Positions 2,380 to 54,938 of a DNA stretch of 64,000 nt are shown here, piece after piece. Location of the stretch: positions 3,286,001 through 3,350,000 of the forward strand of contig NZ_CP097218.1 of assembly GCF_023373525.1 (NCBI RefSeq). The letters are read 5' to 3'. The notes below the pieces were generated by a model. That model was not told the DNA's origin and did not search any database. It saw only the letters and a list, made by a program, of their open reading frames with translations. This stretch comes from Brachybacterium kimchii. GTDB taxonomy: Bacteria; Actinomycetota; Actinomycetes; Actinomycetales; Dermabacteraceae. Within the stretch, counting starts at the first letter, position 1. The number at the start of each line of letters is the position of its first letter. Both the position numbers and the translations under genes were made by a program.

Positions 2380-3642
2380 TCAGATCTCGATCCGCAGGAA
2401 GCGCGGCCGATAGATGCTCGCGTCGGCGTAGAGATCGTCGGGCTCCAGGGAGTTCACGTTATAGCTGACCAGCAGGCTGCGTCCGTCCCTCAGCTCCGGA
2501 TGCTCGTGCGCGTTGTACGCGTAGATGTTCTCGTCGCCGTATGTGCCCTCGGGACCGGTCTCCGTCATTCTCGCGAGGAGTGAGGCATCCCCGAACGGCC
2601 CCTGCGGGCGGCAGGAGGTCGACGCGACGATGCGATTCCCGTACGGCTCGGAGGTGTCCTGCGTGAGCAGGAGGAAGCCGTGCTCCCAGGGTGTCACGCT
2701 GATCTCGTTGGCCACGTCCTCACGGATCGTCGCGGCCTTCTTCTCCGACGAGGACCAGTCCTGACCGTCCCAGAAGCGCCAGGTCTCGAGGTCGGTGAGC
2801 GATTCCGAGGGGACCTCGGCGACGTGCAGGGTCTTGGCGTCCCCATCCTTCACCCCGTAGACGTATGTGGTGCCGGCGCGCTCCTGCAGCCAGCCCGACC
2901 ACTGGATCCCGGCCTCCGACGGCAGCCCTGCGCGGTCCGTCACCTCGCCCGCTTCGAGGTCGACGGTGACGAGCTCCGTTCCCCGCCAGGCGAAGTCGAG
3001 CGGACCGTCACCGGTCTTCTCGAAGCTCAGCGCCGTGACCTGCAGGTGCGACTCGGGAGAGAGTCGGCCTGCGCCGAACCAGCACCAGGCGTCGTCCGAC
3101 AGCGCCGGGACGAGGGACGTGGGAGCGCCGTCGCCGTCGGTCCCGACGACGGTGCGCAGCCGGGAGGAGTCCGCGGCGGACTGCACGACGACGCTGTTGT
3201 GGAGGAAGGGAGTGTCCTCGCTGCGGGTACCGTCCTCCGAGACGTCGCCGTAGAAGGTGTCGGAGAACAACCAGGCGATCGACCCGTCCGCGAGGGGCAC
3301 CGAGTACGTCGAGTCGGCACCGGACCACGCCCCCGACGTCACGGCGTAGTCCTCGAACGCTGTGGTGAGCTGCGTATCCGGTGCCGAAGACGCCGACTCG
3401 GGGAGCGGGGGCGCATCGGTGCACGTGCGTGCCGTCGTGGTGGCAGGGCCGGGCTCCGCCGCTCCCTGCCCACCGGGCTCCTGATCCGCCTCCCCGCATC
3501 CGGGCAGCAGTCCTGCCCCCAGAGCGGTCGCGCCGAGGACGGCACCTCCTCGGACACCCCCGCGCAGAAGGAGTCGACGGGACGGTCGACGGGGCCGCCT
3601 CCCGCCGCCCGCTGCCGAAGGGTCAGGGCAGTGGTCACTCAT
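2380..3642 (-). CDS. Secreted lipoprotein of DUF5005/DUF4185-like beta-propeller type
   Basis: Function unknown. The predicted product is 420 aa. The N-terminus is Tat-like (RR near residues 22-23) with lipobox LPGC (Cys49), then a Gly/Pro-rich linker and a repetitive fold with phrases such as IAWLFSDTFYGD, FLHNSVVV and GNRIVASTSC. These resemble five-bladed-propeller domains (DUF5005, DUF4185) found beside glycosidases; the family assignment is from memory of such motifs. The start is ATG 3640-3642, which overlaps the end of the upstream glycosidase-like gene by 8 bp. The longer in-frame extension up to 3774 would lie wholly inside that gene. It is the last gene of the leftward sugar operon and probably binds or trims the same carbohydrate on the cell surface. 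Confidence 0.75.
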   Translation of the reverse strand: MSDHCPDPSAAGGGRRPRRPSRRLLLRGGVRGGAVLGATALGAGLLPGCGEADQEPGGQGAAEPGPATTTARTCTDAPPLPESASSAPDTQLTTAFEDYAVTSGAWSGADSTYSVPLADGSIAWLFSDTFYGDVSEDGTRSEDTPFLHNSVVVQSAADSSRLRTVVGTDGDGAPTSLVPALSDDAWCWFGAGRLSPESHLQVTALSFEKTGDGPLDFAWRGTELVTVDLEAGEVTDRAGLPSEAGIQWSGWLQERAGTTYVYGVKDGDAKTLHVAEVPSESLTDLETWRFWDGQDWSSSEKKAATIREDVANEISVTPWEHGFLLLTQDTSEPYGNRIVASTSCRPQGPFGDASLLARMTETGPEGTYGDENIYAYNAHEHPELRDGRSLLVSYNVNSLEPDDLYADASIYRPRFLRIEI

Positions 3643-5833
3643 CGGTGCCGCCCTGACCGGTGCTGCCGTCGCCGTGCCGGGTGGAGCGGTCTCCGCCTCG
3701 CTCGACGAGGTGAGCGCCCGAGACGTCGATCCGGTACTCCGAGCCCTGCACCATGAGGCCCTCGAGGCGCGCACCGGGATCGAGTCGCTCGAGGCAGCCC
3801 TCCGTCGTGACGCTCCCGTCCAGTCCCGTCCGCACTCCGAAGATCCCGCGGATCACGAGGTCGCACCACGCGCCTGCGGAGGAGCATGACCAGTCCAGGA
3901 TGTAGGGCAACTGGGGCGGCGCCTTCCTCGCTCCGCCTTGCACGGGGTCCACTGCGTCCTCGACGAAGTGCGCTTGGCCCGGAGGTCCCTGGTTCGTCGA
4001 GCGGGCGAGTCCGGGGAGCCATTCGAGGACGGCCTCGGGATGGCCCAGCGCGATCGCTGCGCGCGCCGCGTCCGGCGGCCATGCCGGATAGGCGCCGTTC
4101 CACTGGTGATCCGCGCGCAGGGAGAAGCCCGCGTCGGCATCTTTCGGGGAGAGCGCGCGCATCCATGTGGGCGTGCGCAGCTCCTCGACGAAGAAGCGCA
4201 CCATCCTGTCCTTCAGGACCTCGGGCAGGTCCTGCGCGATGGTGGTGCCGATGGTGGCGAAATCGTAGACGTGGCGCACCTCGACGGAGGTCCCGTCCGG
4301 TCGGCCGGCGCGGAACCATCCTTGGCCCTCGACGGCGAGGTCGAGGATCGGGTCGATGAGAGCGTCGGCCTCGCTGCGCAGGGAGCGGGCGGATCCCGTT
4401 TCCCCTCGGTGCTCGGCGATGTCCGCGGCGGCGCGCATCGTCCACACGTTCGCGGCATTGAGGCTCGCCACCTGATGGGTGTAGGAGCTGACGCACTCCA
4501 GCAGGTTGTCGATTCCTCCGTAGTCGGCGAGCGCAGAGCCGCCGTGCCCCTCGAGGTCCGGCGATTCACCGCGCAGGCGCATCCATGCGAGAGCCCACTC
4601 CTGGATGTGCTGGGCGATGGAGGCTGTGGTCCCCTCCGGCGAGGTCAGAATCTCGTCCAAGAACCCGGGATCGCCGTGCCAGCGCAGATAGTCGTCGACG
4701 AGACGCGTCATCGCGAAGTGGTTCACCGAGTACCAGTTGCCGACCGGGCCGCCGGTCAGCCATTCGGTGCCGAAGTGGCGCTCGATGTCCAGTCCCGTCC
4801 AGTGCGAGATCTGGCGCCGCATCACCTGCGGGTCCAGAAGGGCGTGGACCAGAGAGCTCAGCGAGTAGTCCCAGATGAACGTCGTGGTCTGCCAGTAGCG
4901 CGGCATGAGCGTGTCGTAGGTGCGCCCCAGCACCGAAGCGGGGTTGTCGCGGCGGAACCACAGCACGCCCAGAGCTCCCCACCAGTACAGACGTCGCAGG
5001 GACGCGTCCTCGGTGACGAGTCGGGGGAGGCTTCCGCCGAACTCGTCGTTGCCCGGGGTGAACATCGCCGCAAGGCTGGTGTCCCACAGCTTCTCGCATT
5101 GGTCGATCGCCCCGCCAAGCTCAGCGGTGAGGCGGTCCAGGACCTGTCGGGCATGTGCGGGCGTCTCGTCGAGCACCTGGACGTACCAGAGCTCGTGCAC
5201 CCCGCCGGGCTCCACCGTGGTGCGGGTCGACAGCAGGTGGGGAGAGGAGGCGCTGTCCGGAGCCGTGTCCTCGCGAACCGGCAGCCCGTGGTCGTCGAGC
5301 AGAGCCTGGAGACACGCCGCCGCGCGGTCCTCGGGTGCGAAGACGCGCATGCCCGGCTCGGCGTGCAGGACATTGTCGGCCTCGGGCGGCTCCGGGGAGA
5401 GCCACGGCCTCCTGGCGGCCGTGACGGAGCCGTCGAGGCGCAGGCCGAGTGCGAGCGGGCGCGGACGGGTGGAGAGGTTGCGGGCGTGGATCCGGACCAT
5501 CACGGCGCGCTCGCCGGGAGGGCAGAGCGTCGCGGTCTCGAGGGACCAGTCGTCGATCTCGGTGCGTCGATCCACGCGGTCAGGCCGCCAGCGCGCTTCG
5601 ACGGTTCCGCCGAACGACCGGGCGAGACGTCCATCCAGGTAGAGCTGCGCCGTGAGTCTGTCGCCCTGCGCGAGGGGCGGCGCATTGACCGAGCGCACGG
5701 CCACGACGTCATGGTCCACCTGCGCGGTGACCAGGTGGTTCGTCAGCCCGGGTGGGTTGATCATGTCGTCGTGCCGGTCGGGGATCCAGTCCCCGGCGAG
5801 GTCTCGGGCACGAGGGATGCTCGGGAGGGGCAC
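3635..5833 (-). CDS. Large six-hairpin (alpha/alpha)6 glycosidase-like protein
   Basis: Probably a cytoplasmic glycoside hydrolase or lyase; no signal peptide is seen. An N-terminal beta-rich part of about 270 residues precedes a helical barrel. Signposts are a WDYSLSSLVHALL segment, GNWYSVNHFAMTRLVDDYL, and ADHQWNGAYPAWPPDAARAA, which resemble six-hairpin glycosidases (GH63/GH78/GH95-like). I cannot name the family or substrate. The start is GTG 5833 because GAAGGAG lies 5 bases upstream; the alternative GTG at 5839 overlaps that site. It follows the SDR stop by 2 bp, so they are co-translated. Length 732 aa. It belongs with the ABC importer upstream and would act on the imported oligosaccharide. 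Confidence 0.7.
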   Translation of the reverse strand: MPLPSIPRARDLAGDWIPDRHDDMINPPGLTNHLVTAQVDHDVVAVRSVNAPPLAQGDRLTAQLYLDGRLARSFGGTVEARWRPDRVDRRTEIDDWSLETATLCPPGERAVMVRIHARNLSTRPRPLALGLRLDGSVTAARRPWLSPEPPEADNVLHAEPGMRVFAPEDRAAACLQALLDDHGLPVREDTAPDSASSPHLLSTRTTVEPGGVHELWYVQVLDETPAHARQVLDRLTAELGGAIDQCEKLWDTSLAAMFTPGNDEFGGSLPRLVTEDASLRRLYWWGALGVLWFRRDNPASVLGRTYDTLMPRYWQTTTFIWDYSLSSLVHALLDPQVMRRQISHWTGLDIERHFGTEWLTGGPVGNWYSVNHFAMTRLVDDYLRWHGDPGFLDEILTSPEGTTASIAQHIQEWALAWMRLRGESPDLEGHGGSALADYGGIDNLLECVSSYTHQVASLNAANVWTMRAAADIAEHRGETGSARSLRSEADALIDPILDLAVEGQGWFRAGRPDGTSVEVRHVYDFATIGTTIAQDLPEVLKDRMVRFFVEELRTPTWMRALSPKDADAGFSLRADHQWNGAYPAWPPDAARAAIALGHPEAVLEWLPGLARSTNQGPPGQAHFVEDAVDPVQGGARKAPPQLPYILDWSCSSAGAWCDLVIRGIFGVRTGLDGSVTTEGCLERLDPGARLEGLMVQGSEYRIDVSGAHLVERGGDRSTRHGDGSTGQGGTDE

Positions 5834-6724: not shown

Positions 6725-7540
6725 TCAGAACTGCCCCAGGGCCAGCCCTTTGGAGAAGGCGCGCTGGGTGATGAGGAACAGCACGACGGTGGGCACCGAC
6801 ACGAGCAGTCCACCCGCGAGGACCGTGGGCATGGCCGCACCGCCGTATGTGCTCTGCAATGCCGACAGCGCTGGCATCACGGGGCGGGTGGACTCGGAAT
6901 GGGTGAGGGTGAGCCCCAGGATCAGATCGTTCCAGACCATCGTCGCCTGCAGGATGAACACTGCGACGAGCGCGCTGCGGGACATCGGCAGATGGATTCG
7001 CCAGAAGATCCGCCACGTGGTGGCGCCGTCCATGACCGCGGCCTCGAACACGTGGGCTGCGATCCCGGAGAAGAAGTTCCGCATGACGAAGGCCGAGAAG
7101 GGCACAGAGATCACCGTGTAGACGAGGATCATCCCGAGGTGCGTGTCGTAGAGGTCCACCGCCACGAACCCTTGGAAGAGCGGGACCAGCAGGATCTGCA
7201 TCGGCAGCACGGAGGCCGAGAAGATCACCACGAACCAGGCGAAGCCGTGCCGCAGGCGCAGCACGACGATCGCGAAGCCCGCCGACGCGCCGATCACGAC
7301 GGCGATCAGCGGGGAGACGATGCTGTAGAGGGTCGTGGACAGGACGCCGTCGGCGATCCGCCCCTGCGTCCAGGCGTCGGAGAGATTCGCCAGCAGGGGT
7401 GCGAAGCCGGATGGCATCCAGGCCGAGGTGGCGCCGTAGACCTCCGGCGTCTTCGCCGCATTGACGACGATGAGGTACACCGGCACGAGCCAGATGATGC
7501 CCAGGACGATGAGCGCGGCCCGGCGCAGTCGATCGGTCAT
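6725..7540 (-). CDS. Sugar ABC transporter permease, MalG-type
   Basis: Inner-membrane subunit of 271 aa with about six hydrophobic segments and the cytoplasmic EAA loop (EAAVMDGATTWRIFWRIHLP), which contacts the ATPase. The start is one base beyond the stop of the upstream permease gene (7542), so the pair is translationally coupled. The N-terminus is short and typical of the CUT1 family. With the second permease and the binding protein it forms a carbohydrate importer. No ATPase gene lies in the operon, so a shared MsmK-like ATPase encoded elsewhere is likely. Confidence 0.93.
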   Translation of the reverse strand: MTDRLRRAALIVLGIIWLVPVYLIVVNAAKTPEVYGATSAWMPSGFAPLLANLSDAWTQGRIADGVLSTTLYSIVSPLIAVVIGASAGFAIVVLRLRHGFAWFVVIFSASVLPMQILLVPLFQGFVAVDLYDTHLGMILVYTVISVPFSAFVMRNFFSGIAAHVFEAAVMDGATTWRIFWRIHLPMSRSALVAVFILQATMVWNDLILGLTLTHSESTRPVMPALSALQSTYGGAAMPTVLAGGLLVSVPTVVLFLITQRAFSKGLALGQF

Positions 7541-51022: not shown

Positions 51023-52180
51023 TCAGGCGGTCTGCTCGCCGGACTGCTCCGACGGGGACGACGGGCCCGACCCGTCGCTCTCCGCCCCAGTGCCGTCCGC
51101 ACCGCTCGCAGCGGCCGGGACGTCGCCCGCGAGGATCCGGTAGATCGAGCGCTTGGCCTCGGTGAGGACCTCGGCGACCTGGCTCATGTTCTGGGCCTCG
51201 CCCGAACGGGTGGCCTCGCGGACGGCGCCCGTGAGGTCCCGCAGCGAGCTGCGAAGATCGAGCGCGCCCTGCGCGAAGGAGTCGTCCTCACCCGCGAAGG
51301 GGTCGGACCAGGAGGCCTGGTGCTCCTCGACATGGGCCTTGCCGGAGTCGGTGAGGGTGGCGAGCTTGCGGCCGCCCTCCTTCGACATCTCGACGAAGCC
51401 CTCGTCCTCGAGCTGGGAGAGCGTCGGGTAGATCGCCCCCGGGCTGACGGACCACGTCCCGCCCGTGCGCTCGTCGATGGTCTGCATGAGCTGGTAGCCG
51501 TGCATCGGCTCCTCGCTCAGCAGCAGCAGGACGGCGGTGCGCACGTCACCGCGGGGCCGACGTCCGCGTCCGCGGCCACGACCGCGGCCTCCGCGGGGGC
51601 CGAAGCCTCGGCCCTGGCCGTCGGCGTCCTCGAAGCCGGGGCCCCCGGGACCCCGTCCGCCGAACCCGGGGGCACCCGGGCCGCCGAAGCCGCGTCCGCC
51701 GGGACCGGCCGGACCGCCCGGTCCGCCGAAGCCGCGTCCGCCGCGTCCTCCGAAGCCGTGTCCGCCGAATCCGGGAACGCGGCCCTCGAACTCGGGGCCG
51801 TCGACGCCGTGTCCGTCGAAGCCGCGCCCGTCGAACTCGCGGCCGTCGAACTCGTGTCCGTCGGCGCCTGGATGGGCGTGACCTCGACCGTGCTGTTCGA
51901 AGCCGTGGTGCTCAGCGTGTCCGGGACGCTCCGGACGCTCCGGACGCTCGGGACGCTCGGGGTGCTCCGGGTGTCCGGGATGGCCCGGGTGATCGCCCGG
52001 ACCACGGCCCGCGCGGGGACCGCCGCGCTGCTCGCGAGGGCCGAAGCCCATGTCGTCGGGGTACATGGCCCCTCCTTCCTCGGCGCGCCGGCGCTGGCCG
52101 CCGCGTCGCATGAGTGCCCGGCGCAGAGCGCGCGGGTCGAGTTCCTGATGCTGGTCGTGATGATCGTGATGGCGTCGCAT
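51023..52180 (-). CDS. PadR family regulator with a very long low-complexity N-terminus
   Basis: 385 aa. Residues about 210-300 are a PadR winged helix (RTAVLLLLSEEPMHGYQLMQ, PGAIYPTLSQLEDEGFV), followed by a short helical tail and a Ser/Gly-rich end. The first 205 residues are low complexity: His-rich start (HHDHHDQHQ), then HPGHPEHPERPERPERP, FDG(R/H)-type repeats, GFGG/GRGG repeats and RGRGRGRRPRG. Two starts have good sites: ATG 52180 (AAGGAG, 8 bases) and in-frame ATG 52066 (AAGGAGG, 5 bases). I take the first because the predicted promoter fits it. Convergent with mgtE. Confidence 0.88.
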   Translation of the reverse strand: MRRHHDHHDQHQELDPRALRRALMRRGGQRRRAEEGGAMYPDDMGFGPREQRGGPRAGRGPGDHPGHPGHPEHPERPERPERPERPGHAEHHGFEQHGRGHAHPGADGHEFDGREFDGRGFDGHGVDGPEFEGRVPGFGGHGFGGRGGRGFGGPGGPAGPGGRGFGGPGAPGFGGRGPGGPGFEDADGQGRGFGPRGGRGRGRGRGRRPRGDVRTAVLLLLSEEPMHGYQLMQTIDERTGGTWSVSPGAIYPTLSQLEDEGFVEMSKEGGRKLATLTDSGKAHVEEHQASWSDPFAGEDDSFAQGALDLRSSLRDLTGAVREATRSGEAQNMSQVAEVLTEAKRSIYRILAGDVPAAASGADGTGAESDGSGPSSPSEQSGEQTA

Positions 52181-52220
52181 GAGTGATCTCCTTACGGTCG
52201 TTCATGTCGTGACAGCATCA

Positions 52221-52249
52221 CGATATATCGCTAACGCGAACGAGCGCAA
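52221..52249 (-). promoter_or_regulatory. PadR promoter with palindrome CGATATATCG
   Basis: On the minus strand TTGCGC (plus 52244-52249), a 16-bp spacer and TATATC (plus 52222-52227) form a promoter. The 10-bp perfect palindrome CGATATATCG (52221-52230) covers the -10, a position suited to PadR autorepression. Confidence 0.5.
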
Positions 52250-52324
52250 GAGTGAGCTGCGCGACGCCGGGAACCGGCCCGCATCGCGCGAGCGCGTGGT
52301 GCGCCCGGCTGCCTGCTCGGGTCA

Positions 52325-52390
52325 TCCCGTGAGAAGTACGAAACCGTTGCCATCAGCGCTGATGGCAACGGTTTCGTACTTCTCACGGGA
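52325..52390. repeat. Perfect 66-bp palindrome, left of the DUF559 gene
   Basis: Every base from 52325 to 52357 pairs with 52390 to 52358, centred on AGCGCT. The arm contains GTGAGAAGTACGAAAC then CGTTGCCA. A closely related palindrome lies at 53535-53594. It is far longer than a transcription terminator and has no loop. Confidence 0.95.
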
Positions 52391-52457
52391 CTTTGCCCGC
52401 TGCTCGGTGCTGGGAACCCGCCGGCTCCCTGGTCCCAGCAGTGTGGAGGACCGGTGC

Positions 52458-52466
52458 TGTGGATAA
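52458..52466. promoter_or_regulatory. DnaA-box-like TGTGGATAA
   Basis: Reverse complement of the perfect 9-mer TTATCCACA, 40 bp before the DUF559 gene start and in the part of its leader without any ribosome-binding site. The same word precedes the DUF6318 gene at 21261-21269. Confidence 0.4.
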
Positions 52467-52505
52467 CTCCCGGTGCGCGGCGCGCCCGCGGGCATCCTGA
52501 TCGCC

Positions 52506-53438
52506 ATGCCCCCGCGCCGGTCGCCCCTGCCACAGTGCCTCGCCACCGTGTTCACGGTGGCCGAGGCCCGCGCTGTCGGCGTCAGCGCGCAGCGACTCAG
52601 GGCCCCGGACGTGCGTCGGCTATCCCGCGGCGTCTACGCGCGAACGGGCATGGATGCCACGATCCTCGATCTCGCCCGTGCGTTCTGCAGCGACGCGTCC
52701 GATGTGGTCGTCTGCGGTCCGACCGCGGCAGAGCTGCTCGAGATGCCCCTCCCGTTCCACCACCTGGCTCGCGAGACGGGGCTGCTCGACCTCGCTGCGA
52801 GGACGCGGCGCCGGGACGCACCGTACGTGCGATGGCATCAGCTCGGCGCGCTCGATGCGCATGACGTGCTGGAGACGGGAGGCGTCCGACTGACGCCGCG
52901 AGTCCGCACGTGGGGAGATCTCTCGACGCTCCTCGATCGCGACGAGCTGACCTCCGTGGCCGACCACCTCGTCCGCCATCCCAGGTTCCGTTTCGAAGGG
53001 CGCAACCGCCCCTACGCGACCCTCGACGAGCTTCGGGGATCCGTTGCGAGCCGTCCGGGGCGACGCGGCAACGAGGCGCTGCGGGCGGCGCTGGACCAGG
53101 CGCGCGTGGGGAGCGACTCGCCTGCCGAGACCCTGCTGCGTCTGCACCTGGTGCGCGCAGGTCTTCCTGAGCCGCAGCTCAACATCGCGATCGTCCAGGG
53201 CGGGGTGGGCCTGGGGGAGCCCGACCTCTCCTGGCCCGAGTTCCGTGTGTGTGCCGAGCACGAGGGGCCAACACATCTGACCCGTGAACAGCAGGAGCGC
53301 GACATCGCCCGGACCGAGGCGCGTCTCCGTCATGGATGGATCGAAGTGCGCACTGTCGCCGCGGACCTCCGCCGTGCTGGCAACCGGGCGGTCAGCAGAG
53401 TGTCCGATGCCCTGCTCCGACACGGCTGGAGAGGCTGA
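52506..53438 (+). CDS. DUF559/AbiEi-type protein with Vsr-like nuclease fold
   Basis: 310 aa. The N-terminal ~60 residues (FTVAEARAVGVSAQRL, RRLSRGVYAR) look like the AbiEi antitoxin HTH. The C-terminal third has the DUF559 PD-(D/E)XK-like motifs: SPAETLLRLHLVRAGLPEPQ, LGEPDLSWPEFRVCAEHEGP and GWIEVRT, with candidate acidic residues Glu, Asp and Glu in the usual order. Members are multicopy in Micrococcales and their job is not established. ATG 52506 has no ribosome-binding site. The gene is framed by two related palindromes (52325-52390 and 53535-53594), so it looks like a discrete cassette. Confidence 0.85.
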   Translation: MPPRRSPLPQCLATVFTVAEARAVGVSAQRLRAPDVRRLSRGVYARTGMDATILDLARAFCSDASDVVVCGPTAAELLEMPLPFHHLARETGLLDLAARTRRRDAPYVRWHQLGALDAHDVLETGGVRLTPRVRTWGDLSTLLDRDELTSVADHLVRHPRFRFEGRNRPYATLDELRGSVASRPGRRGNEALRAALDQARVGSDSPAETLLRLHLVRAGLPEPQLNIAIVQGGVGLGEPDLSWPEFRVCAEHEGPTHLTREQQERDIARTEARLRHGWIEVRTVAADLRRAGNRAVSRVSDALLRHGWRG

Positions 53439-53534
53439 CGCCACCCGGCGGCTCGCTGCTGCGCACCTTCGATTCCATCCGCGCTGCATGCAGGTAGCGG
53501 GGCCTCCTGAGTGTCCCGGCGTACCGAGAAGACT

Positions 53535-53594
53535 CGTGAGAAGTGCGAAACGGTTGCCAAGATCGATCTTGGCAACCGTTTCGCACTTCTCACG
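53535..53594. repeat. Perfect 60-bp palindrome, right of the DUF559 gene
   Basis: All 30 base pairs match about a centre at GATCGATC (53564/53565). The arm GTGAGAAGTGCGAAAC then GGTTGCCA differs from the left palindrome only at a few positions that change symmetrically on both sides, so each palindrome is conserved as a palindrome. It starts 97 bp after the DUF559 stop and 31 bp before the convergent MFS stop. Confidence 0.95.
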
Positions 53595-53624
53595 GCCGAT
53601 GGGGCCGATGGAGCGGGCGGAGGC

Positions 53625-54938
53625 TCACACCTCGTCGCCGGCGGTGATGGCCTCGGCCTCCTGCTCGCTGGTCAGGTGGTGCTGCTGGCCGACCTGGGAG
53701 AGGTGGCGTCGGCCGATGACGAGCATCAGCATGCTCAGCGCCACGGTGATCGCGCCCAGCACGTACGGGGCGGCGGCGCCGACGGCCTCGGAGAGCGGGC
53801 CGGCGACGGCCGGGGCGATCGCGCCGCCCAGGAAGCGCACGCCCGAGTAGGCGGAGCTGGCCACGCCGCGCGGCAGATCGGTGGCCTCCATGACGGTCTC
53901 GGTGAGTGCCGTGTTCATGACGCCCAGCAGCAGGCCGCCCACGATGATCAGCACGATGATGCCGATCATGGAGCCGTGCGCGAGGGCGAGGCCCAGCATC
54001 AGCACGGCCAGCAGACCCTCGATCGTCAGCAGCGTGGGGATCAGGCCCAGCTTGCGGGTGAGGATCGGGGCGACGAACACCGAGGTGATCGCGAGGCACA
54101 CGCCCCAGCCGAAGAAGACGCCGCCGATCTGCATGGCGCCGAACTCCTTGCCCTGGGCCGCGGCGGCGGCCTCGAGCGGGAACGGGGAGTAGGCGAGCAT
54201 CACGAAGAACGTGAAGTTGTAGAAGATCGCGACGAGCGCGAGGGTGCGCAGGGCCGGGTTGCCCAGCGCCCGCAGGGAGGCGAGCGGGGAGACGTGGACC
54301 GGCTTGGCCTCCTTCTTCAGCAGGGCGGTGATGGCGATGAAGCCGATGGCCATGAGCACCGCGGTGCCGAAGAACGGGGCGCGCCAGGAGACGCTGCCCA
54401 GCAGGCCGCCCAGCAGCGGGCCGAGCGCCATGCCGATGCCCAGCGCGGTCTCGTAGAGGATGATCGCGCCGCCGGACGGGCCCGCGGTGGCGCCCACGAT
54501 CGCCGCGAGCGCGGTGGAGATGAACAGGGCGTTGCCCAGTCCCCAGCCGGCGCGCAGGCCGATGATCTCGCTGACCGAGCCGGACGCGCCGGCGAGCGCC
54601 GCGAAGACGACCACGAGCGCGAGGCCGATCAGCAGGGTGGTGCGCACGCCCACCTTCGAGCTGAACCAGCTCGTGAAGAACATGGCGATCGCGGTGATGA
54701 ACAGGTAGCTGGTGAACAGCAGCATCGCCTGCGTGGGGGAGGCGTCCAGCTGGGAGCTGATCGCCGGGAGGATCGGGTCCACCAGGCCGATGCCCATGAA
54801 GGACACGGTCGCGGCGAAGGCGATCGCCCACACGGCCTTGGGCTGGTGGAAGGCGTCGCGCAGGGTCGGCGCGGCGTTCGACGCAGGGGCGGGCGCTGAG
54901 CCCGCGGTGTGCGGATTCGTGGCGGAAGGGGCTGTCAT
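53625..54938 (-). CDS. MFS transporter, DHA1-type drug exporter
   Basis: 437 aa with 12 helices. VSFMGIGLVDPILPAIS is the usual helix-1 opening, and GLRAGWGLGNALFISTALAA and the helix-5 antiporter motif ALGIGMALGPLLGGLLG mark a drug:H+ antiporter. GAAGG stands 11 bases before ATG 54938. It lies 118 bp downstream of a marR gene on the same strand and is its likely target. The natural substrate is unknown. Confidence 0.92.
   Translation of the reverse strand: MTAPSATNPHTAGSAPAPASNAAPTLRDAFHQPKAVWAIAFAATVSFMGIGLVDPILPAISSQLDASPTQAMLLFTSYLFITAIAMFFTSWFSSKVGVRTTLLIGLALVVVFAALAGASGSVSEIIGLRAGWGLGNALFISTALAAIVGATAGPSGGAIILYETALGIGMALGPLLGGLLGSVSWRAPFFGTAVLMAIGFIAITALLKKEAKPVHVSPLASLRALGNPALRTLALVAIFYNFTFFVMLAYSPFPLEAAAAAQGKEFGAMQIGGVFFGWGVCLAITSVFVAPILTRKLGLIPTLLTIEGLLAVLMLGLALAHGSMIGIIVLIIVGGLLLGVMNTALTETVMEATDLPRGVASSAYSGVRFLGGAIAPAVAGPLSEAVGAAAPYVLGAITVALSMLMLVIGRRHLSQVGQQHHLTSEQEAEAITAGDEV

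Follow-up and report, generated by a model that had tools for sequence, protein, structure and literature searches.

A probable nuclease gene of Brachybacterium kimchii stands between two related, perfect palindromes that have further copies elsewhere in the genome. This combination of a nuclease gene with private, dispersed palindromes points to an undescribed small-repeat system with a dedicated nuclease. We believe that gene and repeats probably work in the manner of REPIN-RAYT, on the basis of an unrelated nuclease. The DNA analyzed, called the window below, is a stretch of 64,000 nucleotides from contig NZ_CP097218.1. The features needed here are as follows, in window positions.

52325..52390, no strand: palindrome 1, arms of 33 bp, 66 bp in total, no loop and no mismatch; on the 5' side of the nuclease gene, between the divergent PadR-type regulator and nuclease genes
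52506..53438, plus strand: nuclease gene, ATG to stop, 310 amino acids
52512..53105, plus strand: residues 3 to 200, AbiEi-antitoxin-like winged helix and following domain, the presumed DNA-binding part
53112..53429, plus strand: residues 203 to 308, Vsr/EDxHD-like nuclease domain by structure alignment
53535..53594, no strand: palindrome 2, arms of 30 bp, 60 bp in total, perfect and loop-free; on the 3' side of the nuclease gene, between the convergent nuclease and MFS transporter genes
52266..53621, no strand: 1356 bp with the gene and both palindromes, absent in the relative G005, which has 60 bp there (blastn)

A first-pass annotation of this DNA had described two perfect palindromes with arms of 33 and 30 bp around one gene, and both were found at these positions. 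The gap of 115 bp that it gave between palindrome 1 and the gene was right, while the second, given as 97 bp, is 96 bp when counted from the end of the gene. The two palindromes differ at 5 of 30 arm positions and, since both are perfect, each of the five differences is mirrored on the opposite arm, as had been seen at first pass. Mirrored changes can arise by template switching within a palindrome, so they are no proof of selection. We rejected a chance origin of the window palindromes: perfect arms of at least 30 bp are expected about 1e-11 times per 64 kb (independent bases at this GC content), and with up to 3 mismatches allowed, the window contains 4 half-sites versus 0.33 expected. No other inverted repeat of the window with arms longer than 16 bp and a spacer of at most 20 bp exceeds 85% pairing. 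A known RNA family was also rejected. All matches of the palindromes were to microRNA and sRNA models and fell short of the gathering scores; the hairpin shape presumably accounts for them.

The AlphaFold2 model of the window protein had a mean pLDDT of 95. Using VIA-align, we found that residues 203 to 308 aligned with the EDxHD homing endonuclease I-Bth0305I (3r3p; Z 12.7 over 95 residues), NGO0050 (3hrl; Z 11.2), and Vsr (1cw0; Z 10.0 over 99 residues). Residues 3 to 200 aligned with the AbiEi antitoxin (6y8q; Z 10.7, rmsd 5.8, 172 aligned) and with Rv2827c (1zel; Z 7.8). As modeled, the protein is at the fold level an AbiEi-like part fused to a Vsr/EDxHD-type nuclease. The helix-turn-helix and Vsr-like nuclease proposed at first pass were thus both borne out at this level, while the DUF559 assignment was not, as DUF559 (PF04480) gave no match to the protein up to an E value of 1. 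The window protein belonged to no Pfam family at E 0.01 or better and to no NCBIfam family. No relative of solved structure was found for it by sequence up to E 10 and no Y1/HUH transposase (Transposase_17 or relatives) up to E 1; PADLOC returned AbiEi models only, weakly (best E 6.7e-7). Seven Pfam families appeared among 45 homologs at E 0.01, with DUF559 in 8 and MTES_1575 in 10 of the 45 and no Y1/HUH transposase among the seven. E208, D240, E251, H257, Q262, D266, and R269 were invariant in 45 of 45 aligned homologs. E208, D240, H257, and D266 among them are candidates for the E, D, H, and D catalytic residues of the EDxHD/Vsr nucleases. Four neighboring genes were scanned (PadR, MFS, MarR, and MgtE), and an AbiEii toxin partner was absent among them.

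Whole-gene dN/dS was 0.14 to 0.28 in all seven ortholog pairs, so the enzyme is kept by purifying selection. In the same pairs, the ratio was 0.10 to 0.29 for the nuclease part and reached 0.53 for the first 50 residues. Two observations concern the protein ends. A fourth paralog in the B. kimchii genome (L094, 6001-7143; G000:C1 4095067) matched only window residues 1 to 246 (35%), fell in no Pfam family, and is nevertheless followed by a hairpin whose arms are about 30 long; it is possibly a variant without the nuclease. In the homolog pair L103/L111, residues 1 to 90 were only 10 to 41% identical per 30-residue block and the remainder 80 to 93%, with palindromes 0.86 alike. The N-terminal difference may come from a wrong start or frame in L111.

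To see how hairpins relate to such genes, we scanned 61 loci of the window's own family (window included) and 37 from other families of the order, leaving L288 and L293 out of the latter as members of the window's own family. Hairpins were scored as matches minus twice the mismatches. At scores of at least 22, the 61 loci held 22 hairpins in the 60.7 kb beside the gene versus 4 in 669.5 kb elsewhere; at scores of at least 18, the 37 other-family loci held 32 in 37.0 kb versus 3 in 173.6 kb. When only intergenic DNA was counted (score of at least 20, crude gene caller), there were 44 hairpins in 74.5 kb beside the gene versus 4 in 66.4 kb. By gap, 42 of 188 intergenic gaps beside the gene carried a hairpin versus 4 of 276 others (Fisher, 5e-14). 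Gaps beside the gene are longer (mean of about 396 bp versus 241 bp), so the gap count overstates the contrast and the counts per kilobase are fairer.

A hairpin scoring at least 14 lay within about 560 bp of 60 of the 98 genes (both sides in 30, 5' only in 12, 3' only in 18), and the remaining 38 homologs had none at this threshold. The 98 are among the best matches and include ortholog groups instead of being a random draw, so these counts are not independent. Element length ranged from 36 to 76 bp and was 51 to 67 bp in 86 of 97. For the 30 two-sided genes, arm identity within a gene had a median of 0.89 and was at least 0.77 in 27, versus a median of 0.48 and a 99th percentile of 0.74 between genes; the within-gene value is favored by being the best of all hairpin combinations, with one hairpin per gene used between genes. 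Judged by these sequence comparisons, cognate pairing of gene and palindrome appears nearly certain. The orientation of the two bracketing copies to each other varied, being direct in 8 of the 30 genes, inverted in 6, and undecided in 16, and an IS200-like direct or TIR-like inverted order was unsupported.

Protein and arm divergence were correlated over 60 genes (Mantel r 0.36, reached by 0 of 1000 permutations), with the overall correlation resting on few pairs above 65% identity. Median arm identity was 0.96 for protein pairs at least 75% identical (6 pairs), 0.73 at 65 to 75% (8 pairs), and 0.53 at 55 to 65% (26 pairs). Against expectation, arm similarity tracked the nuclease part more closely (Spearman 0.21 with its identity) than the first 50 residues (0.11), an outcome that does not favor our view of the N-terminal part as the reader of the arms. 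Three homolog records were on plasmids and one on phages, and three regions were inspected. On the Arthrobacter plasmid NZ_CP012477.1 (L370, 2890-3998), the homolog has matched hairpins on both sides; the other inspected plasmid homolog has a hairpin on one side. The fecal scaffold MT837503.1 (L369, 777-1928), filed as Bacteriophage sp., carries a 41% homolog with a hairpin of 29-bp arms behind it, and a similar palindrome lies at G004:C3 1326-1382.

On the chromosome that contains the window (genome G000), the window palindrome has 19 copies, every one with a 54-bp core formed by two conserved arms. Dispersal alone would have favored a gene that sits by chance between two repeats. The first-pass annotation had set a link to the genes against a genome-wide scatter; the copies are indeed scattered, but the palindrome families follow the genes, with some orphans. 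An arm search of the genome and its relatives, which it had proposed, gave paired copies in G000 and in G011 and G034, two close Brachybacterium relatives with an ortholog. Paired copies were absent from the other 44 of the 47 family genomes, among which G023 showed a single unpaired arm, at 3 mismatches. The same three genomes are the only ones, among the matches listed, with homologs at least 75% identical to the window gene. As they are close relatives, shared ancestry alone explains part of this coincidence.

Each paralog of the window gene in G000 has its own, different palindrome. One such second family was searched in G000, G011, and G034, where it has 7, 5, and 12 half-sites, respectively. 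The palindrome of the G025 gene has 31 half-sites in G025, 3 in G004, 4 in G029, and 0 in the other 44 genomes, and that of the G239 gene has 16 in G239, 14 each in G051 and G191, and 0 in the other 27. The palindrome of a gene in another family of the order (G247) has 95 half-sites in its own genome, partly in tandem runs, 4 in G267 and 5 in G237 (three mismatches each), and 0 in the other 27. With the reversed control pattern of that search giving single matches in 5 of 30 genomes, the G267 and G237 half-sites are only modestly above background. Another reversed control, for one G000 search (15 bases, 2 mismatches), gave 7 matches; those of the remaining family searches, including the 47-genome, second G000, G025, and G239 searches, gave zero. 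All five palindrome families tested were multicopy. The G025 and G239 families had been picked knowing only the bracketing pair, and G247 knowing several copies beside the gene. Copies were also seen in G004, with no close homolog nearby (6 kb of one contig checked), and in G051 and G191, with none among the part of their genes examined, so palindrome copies can occur without a close homolog near by.

Placement was scored for 16 of the 19 G000 copies, as set by the mismatch limit and the loci covered. Five lie between convergent genes, 8 between same-direction genes (one of them inside a 600-codon open frame by the crude gene caller), and 3 between divergent genes; several copies stand shortly behind stop codons. 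Flanks of 17 copies, taken at 220 bp on each side, shared weak short matches only (best E 7e-5 over 48 bp), the tandem pair 1700264/1700417 excepted, which suggests that nothing beyond the palindrome itself is repeated.

Some further arrangements were observed. Tandem palindrome runs in G247 (C1 318816-319209 and others) have a spacing of 111 to 115 bp and are BIME-like. All 19 G000 copies lie within 43% of the chromosome (G000:C1 1605793-3438575), a clustering with a probability of about 1e-4 for 15 clusters, judged post hoc and without reference to the origin; by eye, no dnaA was seen among the long frames in the first 6 kb of the contig. Upstream of a paralog start, degenerate single-arm repeats stand in a row (L092, ~6927-7240, and L099, 6927-7264, by eye).

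We used the MFS neighbor as a probe for empty sites. It is present in 28 of 38 Brachybacterium genomes, and within the flanks examined the nuclease gene stands beside it only in G000, G011, and G034. In 3 of the 25 others (G005, G019, and G033) the PadR gene was in view, and the nuclease gene and both palindromes were missing together; in the other 22 it was outside the flank examined. Relatives thus have places, of the kind for which the first-pass annotation had suggested comparing strains, that lack gene and palindromes jointly, and the second half of its refuting condition, that no strain lacks them together, did not hold. By blastn, window 51969-52265 corresponds to L344 (G005) 1138-1434 and window 53622-54874 to L344 1495-2747, and the 60 bp between them in G005 hold an ordinary short hairpin after the MFS gene. 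At the dispersed site 1671425, G000 and G011 carry the palindrome, and G034, G005, G019, and G025 do not. In the alignment, the terminator-like hairpin of the neighboring gene is retained where the palindrome is missing, and about 195 bp differ between G000 and G034, more than the bare palindrome. Taken together, the empty sites and site 1671425 indicate gain or loss of the whole cassette as well as of an individual copy. Of 17 G000 copies compared, at least 13 have a counterpart at the same position in G011, and any spread is therefore slow.

At sites common to G000, G011, and G034, the arms either stay the same or carry changes on both sides, and much of the surrounding intergenic DNA differs; at one common site, the palindrome in G034 instead resembles the second family. 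The information content of three families was 1.75 to 1.88 bits per position in the arms, 0.83 to 1.13 in the center, and 0.39 to 0.58 in the outer flank. The G025 profile excludes the G004 and G029 loci, and the G025 and G247 profiles rest on only 12 and 15 whole copies. Elsewhere in G000 (C1 2364350-2366595; L061, ~2851-5095), two palindromes bracket a 641-codon frame with a RicinB lectin-like domain, and G011 has two palindromes at the corresponding places. G034 (L247, ~940-1000) is without this stretch and has a single palindrome that, by eye, joins the left flank of one copy to the right flank of the other, the product expected from recombination between the repeats.

At the level of sequence, then, we regard gene-repeat pairing, matched bracketing, dispersal, joint absence of the cassette at one locus, variable presence of a single copy at another, conservation of arms over center, and purifying selection as established. 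Our model builds on these. Each gene would have its own palindromic repeat, mostly 51 to 67 bp, made of two conserved arms of about 20 to 30 bp and a less conserved center, with copies adjacent to the gene, in many cases on both sides, and additional, mostly intergenic copies elsewhere in the genome. One protein molecule would bind each arm, and the two nuclease domains would meet over the less conserved center and nick or cut there; alternatively, they would cut the hairpin adopted by the palindrome in single-stranded form. Repair would transfer arm sequence to existing copies and, on rare occasions, to new sites. The 5' copy may double as the operator of the nuclease gene.

The geometry of this model comes from related proteins. 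AbiEi binds two 23-bp inverted repeats 3 bp apart, or 49 bp, and Rv2827c binds pairs of 23-bp repeats 13 bp apart, or 59 bp (PMC7319586). I-Bth0305I dimerizes on nearly 60 bp (PMC3943268). From the closeness of these sites (49 to 60 bp) to the element size, we infer one molecule per arm with the nucleases over the center. With another copy as the repair template, the arms would remain alike and could, rarely, spread. We are fairly confident that the protein binds the arms. The nuclease would, on balance, also act on the palindrome, and we are evenly divided on whether it drives the spread of the palindromes. A second, independently evolved REPIN-like system that is widespread in this actinobacterial order, in which homing-type nucleases, each with a two-armed palindrome of its own, would maintain and spread palindromes by central cuts, change together with them, and give rise to new families, has in our view an even chance of being correct.

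We weighed other readings of the same data. The palindromes could be AbiEi-type operators or regulatory sites for their own gene and for genes near the dispersed copies, with the nuclease in another role such as defense. AbiEi and Rv2827c repress their own promoters via paired 23-bp inverted repeats of similar geometry (PMC7319586), and 42 of the 60 hairpin-bearing genes have a 5' hairpin. However, 48 of the 60 have a 3' hairpin, the mostly convergent or same-direction placement of the G000 copies is unusual for operators, and the half-sites of G247 are many and partly in tandem. We consider this reading unlikely, though it survives best among the rivals. A defense or restriction-like nuclease, with palindromes that mark self or restrain the protein so that DNA without them is cut, or with invaders that carry them being cut, is less probable still. 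It would fit the AbiEi-like part, the joint divergence of protein and palindrome, and the homologs on Arthrobacter plasmids, but the PADLOC matches are weak and to AbiEi models only, and the scanned neighbors lack the AbiEii partner.

Spread of the palindromes by another enzyme (RAYT or IS transposase), with the nuclease genes as mere frequent landing places, has a precedent in the REPs attributed to RAYT transposases (PMC2817692, PMC8049555). We hold it to be very improbable, as different genes have different matching pairs, across several families of the order, and REP tags are rare at the element ends. Least probable of all is that the palindromes are common strong terminators, or arose by chance, next to a gene unrelated to them: several copies do follow stop codons closely, palindrome 2 lies between convergent genes, and other genes have hairpins too, but pairs match within a gene and not between genes, palindrome 1 lies between divergent genes, long hairpins are far rarer beside other genes, the neighbor at site 1671425 keeps its own terminator-like hairpin, and G005 has an ordinary one where the cassette is missing. 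A plain terminator was rejected on the matched pairs, the intergenic enrichment, and the hairpin at site 1671425. The first-pass view of the palindromes as too long and loopless for terminators gains some support from that separate hairpin at one site, though the palindromes may still affect termination.

A dedicated nuclease with its own palindromes, the reading we prefer, bears on repeats more widely. For REPs, the best-studied dispersed palindromes of bacteria, a single class of enzymes is implicated, the Y1 tyrosine transposases, and a large group among them is without a known enzyme (PMC3733652). Matched nuclease-palindrome sets in several families of the order provide dozens of directly testable candidate enzyme-site pairs, and the pairing suggests a role for some uncharacterized DUF559/AbiEi-like genes. 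The system would also offer sequence-specific nucleases with sites that can be read from the genome. We found no description of such nuclease genes with palindromes in the open-license PMC literature searched, and we call the system new in kind for this reason and because the enzyme class differs.

Four known systems are comparable. CGTC REPs, reported without a dedicated transposase from five other phyla (PMC3733652), are dispersed palindromes as well, but CGTC is not enriched at the element ends here (10 of 97). AbiEi and Rv2827c share the fold of residues 3 to 200 and the binding of paired inverted repeats (PMC7319586); here, however, this part is fused to a nuclease, no toxin gene is among the four scanned neighbors, and the repeats are also downstream and dispersed. 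The EDxHD homing endonucleases and Vsr share the C-terminal fold, and the I-Bth0305I site is of similar size (PMC3943268), so the homing-like character suspected at first pass found a counterpart in the nuclease part. Unlike them, the gene described here is free-standing between two others, is bracketed by its own repeats, and combines an AbiEi-like N-terminal part with dispersed repeats.

The closest comparison is with REPIN-RAYT, and the REP-transposase-like organization proposed at first pass was recovered as a nuclease gene with its own flanking and dispersed palindromes. The systems differ in the enzyme, which here has a hydrolytic nuclease fold, was found in actinobacteria, and matched no Y1 transposase family in the window protein (E 1) or in 45 homologs (E 0.01). 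They also differ in the repeat: a GTAG/GTGG head is lacking (GTAG in 1 of 97 elements and GTGG in 4 of 97, both under background), while CGAG (42 of 97) and TGAG (18 of 97) are above background at the element ends. In REPIN-RAYT, a single gene is flanked by two palindromic repeat copies, with dispersed intergenic copies and long vertical persistence (PMC2817692, PMC8049555), and in REPINs two inverted repeats enclose a highly diverse spacer (PMC8049555). The present system is alike in each of these respects: a gene is flanked by two repeat copies, in the window and in 30 of 98 homologs, inverted conserved arms enclose a diverse center, copies are dispersed between genes (1 of 16 G000 copies lies inside a called frame), and persistence is vertical and long.
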